Shown here: one piece after another, positions 40,838 to 48,780 of the stretch
Layout: each line of letters opens with the position of its first letter
Position numbering within the stretch: the first letter of the stretch is position 1
Origin: a virus
Direction: 5' to 3' (one strand)
Length of the DNA: 49,079 bases
Virus record (IMG/VR): IMGVR_UViG_3300025816_000018
Location: 1-49,079 of that record
Position numbers and translations under genes: made by a program
The notes under the pieces: generated by a model
What the model was told of the DNA's origin: nothing
The model's database searches: none
The model's input: the letters and a program-made list of their open reading frames with translations, nothing else

Positions 40838-40866
40838 ATATAATACCAAAAAACAATACAGGACAA
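40838..40866 (-). promoter_or_regulatory. Early sigma70-type promoter
   Basis: Minus strand: TTGTCC, 17 bases, TTATAT, followed by TTAG. The predicted start is near 40831, giving a 21-base leader to the 51-residue gene. The -35, spacer length, TGTATTG after the -35 and TTAGTTG after the -10 are shared with the promoter at 43038-43066 and, in part, with the three between. Confidence 0.8.
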
Positions 40867-42079: not shown

Positions 42080-42314
42080 CTGAGTACATATTATGTGGTG
42101 AAGAAAATCTTAACTCTTCTCTCCATTCGTCAATGTCGCTATCACCATAACCAATCTCACCCATAGCTTTACCTACTTTTATACAATCTTCAGTACACAA
42201 GTCAGGACCTTTATCAAGCGCACATAACGCTTGATAGTAAAGTATCCAAATATACTTACCATTATTAAAGTAAATGTCTTCACCTTTGATTTCAGTAATT
42301 CTAAGCATTGTAGA
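42072..42314 (-). CDS. Small hypothetical early protein
   Basis: The open frame extends to 42368, but the upstream gene ends at 42301, so ATG at 42314 (MSTMLRITEIKGEDIYFNNG, 80 aa) or 42308 is likely. It has IWILYYQALCALDKG and a CTEDCIKVGK segment, and ends SSPHNMYSDA. No family recognised. Neither ATG has a good ribosome site, so translation is probably coupled to the gene before. Confidence 0.5.
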   Translation of the reverse strand, partial: STMLRITEIKGEDIYFNNGKYIWILYYQALCALDKGPDLCTEDCIKVGKAMGEIGYGDSDIDEWREELRFSSPHNMYSDA

Positions 42315-42648
42315 CATAAGGTTTATCATATCTTCCAAGATTAACAGAGATATACCAACCAACATCAAAGTAATCTGTCATAATATCTGAATTATCGTGA
42401 TTTCCATTATTCATCGCAGGAATAACTTCTGATAAGAAAGCAAGTGCTTCAGGATTATCTGCGAAGTGGTCTTGATACCAATACTCATTGATATTATCAG
42501 TACCAAAATCAATCGACCCTGATTGAAGAGTCAATCTCAATGATGAATAGTTATCAACTGAAAGTGAACCTTTCATATTGTGTTTTTTTAATACTTCTTT
42601 AATCTTGGGAGCAAGATTCTTTTTTTTCTCTTGATTCATATAAGCCAT
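42301..42648 (-). CDS. LPD29-like small protein
   Basis: The 115-residue protein MAYMNQEKKKNLAPKIKEVL then SLSVDNYSSLRLTLQSGSID resembles the 'LPD29' domain associated with large polyvalent phage proteins, including DIMTDYFDVGWYISVNLGRY at the end. The domain's activity is unknown. AAGGAG lies seven bases upstream and a strong promoter (42687-42715) sits 39 bases upstream. Likely early expressed. Confidence 0.65.
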   Translation of the reverse strand: MAYMNQEKKKNLAPKIKEVLKKHNMKGSLSVDNYSSLRLTLQSGSIDFGTDNINEYWYQDHFADNPEALAFLSEVIPAMNNGNHDNSDIMTDYFDVGWYISVNLGRYDKPYVYNA

Positions 42649-42686: not shown

Positions 42687-42715
42687 AATATACGAAATAA
42701 ACCAATACAGGACAA
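42687..42715 (-). promoter_or_regulatory. Early sigma70-type promoter
   Basis: Minus strand: TTGTCC, 17 bases, TATATT. Its -35 and following TGTATTGGTTT match the promoter at 43038-43066 closely. The predicted start is near 42680, giving a 32-base leader to the LPD29-like gene. It directly follows the structured RNA region. Confidence 0.75.
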
Positions 42716-42739: not shown

Positions 42740-43031
42740 TTCTATTCGAGACTCTTAGTAGAAAGAGTCTCGAAAATGTCTTTCAGCACCCTTTGTGCCT
42801 ATCAATATGATAATCACTTATCAAAACATTTTTAAGAGGACAATTGGTCTCCCTCCTCTCAAGCCGGAGGACGCCGGCCATGTTGACAGAGGTTCAAGTA
42901 GTCTCAATGAGGTCTTGACTCACTCTATTCAAATCCAAATTTTCAAGAAACAGAAGACAGGAGAACAACCTCTTCAAGGTTGATTTTTAATGCCTTCTCA
43001 GCAAATTAGAACAAACTCCTGTCTCAATAAC
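42740..43031 (-). ncRNA. Putative structured non-coding RNA of about 290 bases
   Basis: The 425-base gap 42649-43073 has no credible ORF but a clear promoter at 43038-43066 pointing into it. The minus strand folds as: an 8-bp stem GACAGGAG/CTCCTGTC (43016-43023 with 42956-42963) enclosing a 6-bp hairpin (42966-42982); a GC hairpin GCCGG/CCGGC (42863-42878) whose loop can pair with AGGA downstream; GATAA-GTGA-TTATC with a GNRA loop (42809-42822); GCAC/GTGC (42786-42798); and a perfect 12-bp hairpin TTCGAGACTCTT (42745-42774). No tRNA, tmRNA or RNase P landmarks seen. No T-run follows, so the 3' end is estimated. Confidence 0.65.
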
Positions 43032-43037
43032 AACTAA

Positions 43038-43066
43038 ATATAACACGGAAAACCAATATAGGTCAA
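43038..43066 (-). promoter_or_regulatory. Sigma70-type promoter facing the gene-free RNA region
   Basis: Minus strand: TTGACC, 17 bases, TTATAT, then TTAGTTG; the predicted start is G at about 43031. It is the best consensus match of the five, yet the next protein start is about 380 bases away beyond another promoter. This suggests its product is an RNA. It starts just after the stop of the 200-residue exported protein. Confidence 0.85.
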
Positions 43067-43073
43067 CCTTTTT

Positions 43074-43676
43074 TTAAGTATTTTTCATTTTTATTTTTAA
43101 TTGAGATAAAAGATTATTTATCTTTTTAAGGGAAGGGTGTTTCGGGTCAATCTTGATAAGGTTTTCTTTTTTGATTGTTAATTTACCATATGCTTTTTGT
43201 AAGTCTATCATTGCGATACCACGCATACTTCGTCTATAATATAAAAGAGCTAATGCTTCATCTTCTGCTTCAGCTCCACGAACTCCCGCAACTGCTGTGA
43301 TTTGTTCTACTTCTCCATATACTTCTGTTACATCTTCTATTTCTTGCCATACCGTATTTTCCCACATAACATCTAAATCTAAATCTACAGATTCTAATTC
43401 TACCATATCAATACTATCTTGAATTGCTTTTTGTCTTTGTCTTTCTTTTGACCTAAGAGCAAACTCAGCATTTAATCGTGTTGTACGGATTGAATCACAT
43501 TCAGATATCCATCCACCATAACCTTTCCAAGCAGGTGAACCTTTATAATCTCTGTATTCTGTATCATCACAATCTATTCCATATGCAACATCTCTTTTAA
43601 ATTCAGATGTTCTTTTTATGTTTTGAGAAAATGTAACACTTATTAATAATACGATTGATAAGTATTTTATTGTCAT
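43074..43676 (-). CDS. Exported hypothetical protein, last gene of the pilin cassette
   Basis: The 200-residue protein has a signal peptide (MTIKYLSIVLLISVTFSQ, cleavage near Gln18) and a mature part with three Cys (GIDCDD, ISECDS), a YKGSPAWKGYGGW segment and long helices. No domain recognised. The signal style is typical of FCB-group bacteria. It overlaps the membrane-anchored gene upstream by 4 bases. It may act in the periplasm with the pilin-like proteins. Confidence 0.6.
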   Translation of the reverse strand: MTIKYLSIVLLISVTFSQNIKRTSEFKRDVAYGIDCDDTEYRDYKGSPAWKGYGGWISECDSIRTTRLNAEFALRSKERQRQKAIQDSIDMVELESVDLDLDVMWENTVWQEIEDVTEVYGEVEQITAVAGVRGAEAEDEALALLYYRRSMRGIAMIDLQKAYGKLTIKKENLIKIDPKHPSLKKINNLLSQLKIKMKNT

Positions 43677-44166: not shown

Positions 44167-44607
44167 TTATTCGTTTGTATAAAGTGTAGGATTTTCGTCT
44201 AACTCAAAAGTTAATGAATCATACTTGTAGTAGTAGATTTCATCATTTCTTCTATGATGAAAGATTGCCGGTTCACCAGCTGCATCTACACTAAACTGCC
44301 ATTCATTATCTTCATCGGGTACACCTTCAAACAATGTAACTGATATGTTACGACTTCTACCAATAGTAGTTAGTGGATTATATGGCCACGCTTCAAGTCC
44401 GGTCTCAGTTATTCTTTCAGAAGCTTCTTGTTCACATCCTGCCCATACCATATCTACGAATGTTTTTTCTGCTGTTTCTTCTGCGTTATCAACCGTTTGT
44501 TGATATCTTGGAATTGCCACAGCCGCTAAGATTCCTAATATGATTGTGACCATCACAAGTTCAATCAAAGTAAAACCTTTATTTGTGCTTTTTAATATGT
44601 TCTTCAT
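44167..44607 (-). CDS. Type IV pilin-like protein with canonical prepilin site
   Basis: The 146-residue protein has the class III signal NKG|FTLIELVMVTIILGILAA with cleavage after G11 and Glu at +5 (E16), followed by AIPRYQQTVDNAEETAEK, the standard start of PilA/GspG-type pilins. The globular part has a single Cys (WAGCEQE) and a GEPAIFHHRRNDE region. Assembly would require a host prepilin peptidase and pilus machinery, none of which is in the window. Pilin genes are rarely seen in lytic phage genomes. Confidence 0.88.
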   Translation of the reverse strand: MKNILKSTNKGFTLIELVMVTIILGILAAVAIPRYQQTVDNAEETAEKTFVDMVWAGCEQEASERITETGLEAWPYNPLTTIGRSRNISVTLFEGVPDEDNEWQFSVDAAGEPAIFHHRRNDEIYYYKYDSLTFELDENPTLYTNE

Positions 44608-44647: not shown

Positions 44648-45307
44648 TTACGGTACTAAAGTTTTAAATAACATTCCCGGATTCTCTGTATCGATTACGA
44701 CAAGAGCAGGTGCTTGAGCATCTGTTCCGCTACCACTTCCTGGTATTACTAAGTAAGCATACGAGCCATCCTGAAACGGTGATTTGATTCCTTTGTTACC
44801 AAAGTCTTTTTTGAAGTCAAGTGCTCCGCCTGAATTAAAACCAACAGATGTTTCTAAGTTCATCCATTCATCTTGTAAAGCGTCATCATCATCAGAAGCC
44901 GTTGAGAATACATAAACAAACTCACCTAATTCAGATTCATATGATTGTTTTTGTTCAAGTATAGTTTCAATATATGCTTCAAGAGTTTCATCAGTATATG
45001 CTCCATCTGATAAGTCAATTCCACCTACAGGTTGGTCATACTTTGATTGTCCAGGAAATCTTCCTTTACCTTCTTCAGATACTTGTTGGTTGTAGTAGTT
45101 GTTAGCTACGGTTAAAATCTTATCAATGTTAGCGATAGATTTTTTCTCTTTAGCAGCAGCACCGACATTACCAAACTTTGGTGCGGCAGTTGTAGCTAAT
45201 GTAGCCATCATAGCAGTAGTAACAGCAAATTCAGCTAATGAATTACCTGTGTTACTCTTCATTTTCTTATTTAGTTTTTTGAAAAATCTTTTTATTGTTT
45301 CGAACAT
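44648..45307 (-). CDS. Second prepilin-like protein (GNSLAEF type)
   Basis: The 219-residue protein has a basic leader (MFETIKRFFKKLNKKMKSNT) and then G21|NSLAEFAVTTAMMATLATTA with Glu26 at +5, a prepilin-like cleavage and helix. APKFGNVGAAAKEKKSIANI continues as in pseudopilins. The C-terminal domain is Asp/Gly-rich with the ending LVVIDTENPGMLFKTLVP. It lies 40 bases before the canonical pilin, and the pair may form one fibre or pseudopilus. AAGGAG precedes the ATG. Confidence 0.75.
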   Translation of the reverse strand: MFETIKRFFKKLNKKMKSNTGNSLAEFAVTTAMMATLATTAAPKFGNVGAAAKEKKSIANIDKILTVANNYYNQQVSEEGKGRFPGQSKYDQPVGGIDLSDGAYTDETLEAYIETILEQKQSYESELGEFVYVFSTASDDDDALQDEWMNLETSVGFNSGGALDFKKDFGNKGIKSPFQDGSYAYLVIPGSGSGTDAQAPALVVIDTENPGMLFKTLVP

Positions 45308-45525: not shown

Positions 45526-46176
45526 CTATTTGTGTGATTTTACAAGTTTATCAGAGACTTGTGCTGATAAAACAGATTGTATAGTGAAGTATAATGATGG
45601 ATTACGTTTTAATAATTCTTTAAATTCTCTTTGTTTCCAAACTAAACATTGTGATTCGTGTTTAACCTTACAAGTAGCAGTAGCTACTTTCTCTGTAAGA
45701 AACGACATTTCACCAACAAACTCTCCATCTTTTAATTGAGCTACATTATCATTGTCAACTAAAACATCTACGGTTCCGTTATATATAAGATATAAATCAG
45801 GTACAGGCATACCTTGAGTTATAACTCGTTGACCAGGTTTTAGAGTTTCCCAAGTTGCGGCTCTACTAATCTTTAGATATTCTACAGGAGTCATATCTTT
45901 AAATAATGTTTGATATAACTCTTCGTTTTTATCATCCATCTTTACTGCACGTTTCTCATATAAGATAACTCCTATATGATACAGATTTACAATTATAAAA
46001 ATAATATTCCAATTAACGGCTAACCACATAGGTTCAGCCGGTATTGTGTAGTTATAAAATACTGAGAATAAACTTGCTATTATAGAAACGATTCTTAGCC
46101 AAAATATATCTTTGACTAAAAAAGAAAAGGCAATTAGTCCAAATGCTAAGTGCCCTGCTAACGTTGCGACATTCAT
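45526..46176 (-). CDS. Popeye-like membrane protein with cyclic-nucleotide-binding fold
   Basis: The 216-residue protein has three membrane helices (about 5-22, 28-45, 50-73) and a CRP-type beta-barrel domain (about 88-205). The arrangement matches Popeye-domain proteins. The phosphate-binding cassette reads GEMSFLTEKVATATC: G155-E156 are kept, but the Arg that binds the cyclic phosphate is Val164, so cAMP binding is doubtful. It may sense another ligand or act as a scaffold. The ATG is joined to the H1-like gene stop as TAATG. Confidence 0.75.
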   Translation of the reverse strand: MNVATLAGHLAFGLIAFSFLVKDIFWLRIVSIIASLFSVFYNYTIPAEPMWLAVNWNIIFIIVNLYHIGVILYEKRAVKMDDKNEELYQTLFKDMTPVEYLKISRAATWETLKPGQRVITQGMPVPDLYLIYNGTVDVLVDNDNVAQLKDGEFVGEMSFLTEKVATATCKVKHESQCLVWKQREFKELLKRNPSLYFTIQSVLSAQVSDKLVKSHK

Positions 46177-48486: not shown

Positions 48487-48780
48487 CTATAGAACCATCC
48501 ACCATGCAGCGGCGATTTCTACAAATAAGTCAGCGCCTGTATTATACGCCCATCTTTTCTTTGTGCCATAAGTTTCTTCTGTACCTTCTACATACACTTC
48601 GAAGATTTCCCAAGCGACACCGATAATGGCAACCCACAACACAGCCCATAAATCAGAACAACCTAACCATTGTGCAATCTTTGCTATAAACAAACCTGCT
48701 GCTAAATGATAAGATGTCCAACCATCTAATGCTCCTGATGAGACTTGCCATTGATAAAACTTTGCTATCGGATTATTCAT
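48487..48780 (-). CDS. Small membrane protein with VanZ-like pattern
   Basis: The 97-residue protein has two to three membrane helices (about 22-40, 44-60, 82-97) and the motif AWEIFEVYVEG followed by YNTGADLFVEIAAAWW, which recalls the W-E..E..N..D-L..D spacing of VanZ-like membrane proteins. The match is partial. It may be an envelope protein of the cassette; function unknown. Confidence 0.5.
   Translation of the reverse strand: MNNPIAKFYQWQVSSGALDGWTSYHLAAGLFIAKIAQWLGCSDLWAVLWVAIIGVAWEIFEVYVEGTEETYGTKKRWAYNTGADLFVEIAAAWWMVL

Follow-up and report, generated by a model that had tools for sequence, protein, structure and literature searches.

What is transcribed when a phage promoter faces no gene? 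The window analysed here, the complete 49,079-base IMG/VR record of a T4-like myovirus, contains a gene-free gap of 425 bases between the end of one gene at 43074 and the start of the next at 42648, and a promoter points into this gap. The locus might encode a free RNA, the leader of the next gene, a very small protein or a DNA element, or it might be a spacer that folds by chance. The features discussed below are collected in Table 1.

Genomic setting and promoters

The nearest named relatives of the phage, judged by its baseplate protein, are Microcystis phage Mel-JY01 and the Flavobacterium phages vB_FspM_immuto (38-46% identity). The genes surrounding the locus lie on the minus strand throughout. 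Only short ORFs occur in the gap, none of them credible, and these have no homologues in Pfam, PHROGs or phage records; a plus-strand ORF scanned as a protein also gave no match. Elsewhere on the minus strand the phage encodes a prepilin-type N-methylation protein (PF07963) and a second, pilin-like-looking protein (44167-44607 and 44648-45307), as well as a cyclic-nucleotide-binding / POPDC-like protein (45526-46176; PF00027, PF04831).

A previous sequence-only reading of this DNA had described a TTGACC-17-TTATAT promoter directed into the ORF-free stretch, with promoters of the same type before nearby genes, and both observations hold. Five near-identical minus-strand promoters lie within 2.2 kb (40.8-43.1 kb), at 40866, 41505, 41854, 42715 and 43066. 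Four are positioned 3-36 nt ahead of a gene start, the exception being the strong promoter at 43066. All five are long promoters (GGTTGWCCTRTATTGGTTT..TATATTTAG) in which the spacer is conserved in addition to the hexamers. The further proposal that the promoter at 43066 serves the RNA alone gains plausibility from the separate promoter of the next gene, but it is unproven because no terminator is found 3' of the RNA.

Comparison with known RNA families

Rfam 15 at gathering scores gave no match over the whole window, and at E values up to 5 nothing credible was returned for the 551-nt region. The best weak match was to BTnc231 (RF04180), a Bacteroides sRNA, which scored 19.2 bits (E 0.15) where the cut-off is 80.4; this is chance level, and the window RNA is not a member of that family. 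Thus the covariance-model search called for by the earlier reading matched no known family. Neither ARAGORN nor Rfam detected a tRNA or tmRNA, in line with the reported lack of such landmarks.

DNA similarity to annotated phages consisted of short chance matches only. Related phages were gathered through neighbouring proteins. As a DNA query the window RNA had no match in 89 related records or in the first 471 loci, and single-sequence covariance models (R1 and R2) gave no hits among the relatives, of which 48 records were tested. About 115 related phage records, searched by sequence and covariance, gave no relative of the window RNA, and patterns for the outer stem and the GC hairpin matched mostly unrelated contigs, without homologues.

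Fold of the predicted RNA

The RNA strand (292 nt) has a minimum free energy of -88.5 kcal/mol (z -3.14), a value equalled by one of 200 dinucleotide shuffles, and the pair probabilities are 0.8-0.99 for most helices. The stems that had been described from the sequence were all found: the outer stem, which is formed from 9 base pairs and contains nested hairpins, the GC hairpin (S1), the GUGA-capped hairpin and the 12-bp hairpin. The last two, put forward as a GNRA hairpin and a terminal hairpin, fold in the window but are not conserved in the homologue L495 described below. No homologue of the 5' domain and the interrupted hairpin (42883-43024) has been found so far.

Folding energy alone is no proof of an RNA, since other stretches of this genome not uncommonly reach comparable local z-scores; when 150-nt segments were scanned along the entire window, the RNA region was unexceptional (best z -2.5), with values down to -4.9 elsewhere. 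The plus strand folds about equally well when compared with its own shuffles (z -3.96). The RNA strand is therefore assigned from the promoter and the homologue rather than from folding energy. An intrinsic terminator, consisting of a GC-rich hairpin and a U-run, was not found at the 3' end. The 12-bp hairpin is followed on the RNA strand by A-rich sequence (UAGAAUCCCAAAAAAAA) and so is not such a terminator, and the lack of a U-run leaves the 3' end of the RNA undefined.

Table 1. Positions of the RNA locus, its helices, the flanking genes and related elements in other phages. Positions without a locus name refer to the window.
Feature	Position	Strand	Remarks
Upstream gene	43074..43676	-	200 aa; in many relatives manA RNA is next, directly or past a small gene
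Promoter, predicted to drive the RNA	43038..43066	-	TTGACC-17-TTATAT; motif common to four other promoters
Inferred RNA gene	42740..43031	-	about 292 nt; 5' end inferred from promoter, 3' end uncertain
5' domain	42955..43024	-	9-bp stem AGACAGGAG/CUCCUGUCU and two nested hairpins; z -3.0
Interrupted hairpin	42883..42932	-	UUGA-UAGAG-UCAAG / CUUGA-CUCUG-UCAA
Module A, conserved core	42773..42884	-	~110 bases; L495:894-986(-), 76% over 68 nt and 91% over 32 nt
Helix S1	42862..42879	-	GGCCGG/CCGGCU, invariant in both copies
Helix S2	42833..42861	-	UGAGAGGA/UCCUCUUA; L495 UUCGU-GGGGA/UCCUC-(UU)-GCGGA, same place, other sequence
Helix S3	42773..42832	-	AAAAUGUUUU/AAGACAUUUU, encloses S5 and GUGA hairpin
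GUGA hairpin	42809..42822	-	GATAA-GUGA-UUAUC, within 19-nt insertion missing from L495
Hairpin S5	42785..42799	-	GGCAC-AAAGG-GUGCU, then conserved GAAAG
12-bp hairpin	42745..42774	-	perfect; L495 has module B here; no U-run after
Next promoter	42687..42715	-	TTGTCC..TATATTT, serves 115-aa gene
Downstream gene	42301..42648	-	115 aa, widespread among T4-like phages
Module B copies	L003:929-1010, 1016-1071; L007:668-744, 749-804; L005:2201-2259; L012:4757-4821; L025:3464-3519; L093:2974-3038; L128:7052-7123; L148:6902-6964; L150:5821-5896; L500:1445-1498; L495:826-896(-)		
Third RNA stretch	L495:653-820(-), L500:1500-1770(+), L499:1300-1700(-)		three related copies
Same slot in 126-kb relative	L084:6658-6830 (= L015:5755-5927)		sequence unrelated to window RNA
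manA units	L083:6642-7102, L094:7094-7559, L093:1572-2027		also G008, G004, G053, G065, G015

A conserved core in a second phage

Scanning IMG/VR with the core motif GCACNAAGGGTGCTGAAA returned four contigs, comprising one true homologue, L495, and three chance matches inside genes. Matches to the core pattern in L494, L496, L497 and L536 were rejected as chance matches within genes. L495 derives from record IMGVR_UViG_3300038714_000317 (G090), a phage of the same clade in which window 48487-48780 has a homologue of 82% identity and the surrounding gene types are alike. Outside the seed the similarity is collinear, lies on the same strand and includes ACATGGCCGGCGTyCTCCGGCTT within the 68-nt block. 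The match is significant by blastn (E 2.7e-8 for the four hit loci; E 3e-6 for 4.0 Mb), by nhmmer (E 7e-8, 4.0 Mb) and with the single-sequence covariance model R1 (E 5e-6). This conserved core, termed module A, occupies a different genomic place in the two phages. In L495 it likewise follows a TTGAC promoter, and in both phages the next gene's own promoter lies directly past the RNA. No third member was found.

Folded alone, each copy gives the same layout, in which S1 and S2 are followed by S3 enclosing S5, with zero-length linkers. The signature GGCCGG(N6)CCGGCU - S2 hairpin - AAAUGUUUU..AGGCAC(N5)GUGCUGAAAG..UUU, with abutting helices, is present in window 42884-42773 and in L495:894-986. 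S1 and S5 are unchanged between the copies. S2 is rebuilt, both arms of its lower part differing while pairing is retained in each copy. In S3 two pairs have changed on one side from U-A to U-G, which preserves pairing on the RNA strand but would break it on the opposite strand, and one end pair is lost. The L495 fold is similarly strand-specific, with z -2.0 on the RNA strand against -0.3 on the other. MAFFT misaligned S2 of the two copies, and the pairs were checked on a hand alignment and by independent folding.

The helix changes come from two sequences, and the covariation suggested by this alignment is consistent but limited. The search for homologues and covariation proposed earlier has accordingly yielded one homologue in which helix changes keep pairing. 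The locus had been read as a non-coding structured RNA, possibly of a new class. The first part is borne out by the absence of an Rfam match and by L495, where the sequence of the core, its fold and its position close to a promoter are all retained; as for the second, the family is new to Rfam but has two members so far.

Module B and other RNAs of the clade

The L495 RNA continues beyond module A directly into module B (GGGACTAGGGTTCAGAGCCACTG..CTGGCGTCCC), and past this lies a third stretch, which has a tRNA-like T-arm at its end (GGGGGGTTCGAGTCCCCCC). Module B is a compact three-helix motif formed from P1, a mini-hairpin (GGUU-NAG-AGCC) and P3, which contains a conserved CACYG..CUGG. A covariance model detects 14 copies in 12 of 50 related records; by pattern the motif occurs in 10 of the 50, and the reversed control pattern in none. 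Across 13 copies, standard pairs occupy 99.0% of cells (82.7% in shuffles) and the covariation score reaches 0.524 (0.191 in shuffles); 8 of 15 pairs are changed on both sides. This covariation is lost when the partners are slid. Module B has no Rfam match, and its model (R3) has none in the window (best E 1.5). It is sited in leaders before uvsX/RecA-like genes, as read from the translated start, and before other genes, as well as inside longer RNAs; L003 and L007 contain tandem pairs. Module B is a candidate riboswitch or protein operator.

The third stretch has its T-arm-like end (GGKTTCGANTCC) after a conserved GAGTAGTCCGYTAGTA-GGCTG, and is recognised by neither ARAGORN nor Rfam.

Possible function of the RNA and alternative explanations

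The promoter, the absence of a gene and the fold are observed in the window, and the core and its fold are conserved in a second phage. It is therefore very probable that the locus encodes a real structured RNA, the core of which is most likely under selection in the two phages; it is probably a new phage RNA, matching no known family. Whether it is also a free-standing, early-expressed non-coding RNA of a T4-like marine phage, founding a family of its own, is an evenly balanced matter, although this is the reading preferred here. A host-type RNA polymerase would start at the 43066-43038 promoter and produce an RNA of about 290 nt, the 3' end of which would arise through processing or Rho instead of an intrinsic terminator. 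The transcript would fold into the 5' domain, the interrupted hairpin, the module A core and a phage-specific 3' hairpin. As a stable RNA it could act in trans; most likely module A would bind a protein of the host or the phage, the RNA serving as scaffold, decoy or regulator. Two observations speak for such binding rather than for antisense pairing: the conserved positions are located within and next to helices, and no antisense match of a useful length turned up elsewhere in the 49 kb.

Action in trans has about an even chance of being correct. Three points favour it: in both phages a separate promoter serves the next gene, most relatives express the 115-aa gene in the absence of any such RNA, and the RNA that relatives carry at or close to this slot has a terminator of its own. 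Against the preferred reading as a whole, two of the three domains of the window RNA (42883-43024) are without a homologue, and there are two members in all. The L495 core is moreover fused to modules absent from the window, and a shared function is an assumption.

The main alternative is that the RNA acts in cis. Transcription from 43066 would then continue into the 115-aa gene, and the RNA, as a long and structured 5' UTR that is riboswitch-like or a protein operator, would control expression of this gene beside the second, proximal promoter. With no intrinsic terminator past the 12-bp hairpin, such read-through is possible. Leader RNAs are also common in the clade, as illustrated by module B in front of uvsX-like and other genes, and L084 has the same arrangement of promoter, about 160 nt of non-coding sequence, promoter and 115-aa gene. 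However, a separate promoter 3' of the RNA serves the 115-aa gene, most relatives express this gene from such a promoter without any RNA, and in L495 module A precedes an unrelated, AAA ATPase-like gene which again has its own promoter. A leader function is thus possible but rather doubtful.

Module A could instead be a decayed or tiny protein gene, its peptide (MAGVLRL..NVLIGTKGAER) being intact in L495 and frame-shifted in the window. Both copies begin ATGGCCGGCGTyCTCCGGCTT, and the differences before the 19-nt insertion fit one frame. This insertion breaks the frame in the window, though; there is no Shine-Dalgarno sequence, no homologue occurs in phages, Pfam or PHROGs, and the L495 frame continues into module B, a non-coding motif in other phages. 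As the fold also accounts for each nucleotide change, a protein gene is improbable.

In phage T4, the promoter of oriF fires into a non-coding stretch and the origin is primed by an R-loop. A DNA element of this kind would explain a promoter facing a gene-free stretch, but GC skew is unchanged near 43 kb (the origin scan was negative), the fold conservation in L495 is strand-specific, and module A stands there elsewhere in the genome beside other genes; such an element is very improbable. Equally improbable is chance folding of an AT-rich intergenic spacer without RNA function, which would suit the unexceptional 150-nt windows and the absence of homologues among about 115 related records, but not the sequence and fold kept in L495 or a promoter without a gene.

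The window RNA may tentatively be placed in an undescribed set of composite phage RNAs in which module A, module B and the third, T-arm-like module are shuffled behind early promoters. If true, these marine phages would possess a modular RNA toolkit, to be deployed against their hosts or within them. The sea is rich in T4-like phages, and few phage structured RNAs beyond tRNAs have a known role. The module A core, found in two phages and absent from Rfam, and the covarying module B are testable units for how these phages use RNA, and the main interest of the locus is as a handle on this wider set of structured RNAs in T4-like marine phages.

Comparison with known phage RNAs

Phage T4 itself encodes the stable RNAs C and D, which are promoter-driven and structured; their likeness to the window RNA is a functional analogy only. 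A closer parallel in setting is manA RNA (Rfam RF01745), which is similarly a structured RNA of T4-like marine phages. In relatives manA, with a promoter of its own, lies at or close to the slot that follows the 200-aa gene; in several of them it comes directly, in others past one or more small genes. The slot therefore often holds an RNA, and the window holds a different one. The RF01745 model, which requires 55.2 bits, did not match the window, not even when E values up to 5 were allowed over 551 nt, and gave no candidates in G000. Unlike the window RNA, manA is a conserved unit of ~450 nt that ends in an intrinsic terminator; several records contain two adjacent, tandem manA matches. A cis-regulatory role has been proposed for manA (PMC2864571), but in these phages it resembles a free RNA more than a 5' UTR element, with its own promoter and intrinsic terminator in L083 and L094. 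Finally, GOLLD and ROOL are large, ornate, multi-domain RNAs associated with phages (PMC12286853). They are much larger than the window RNA, which has no Rfam match, but the RNA of L495 resembles them in being multi-domain too.
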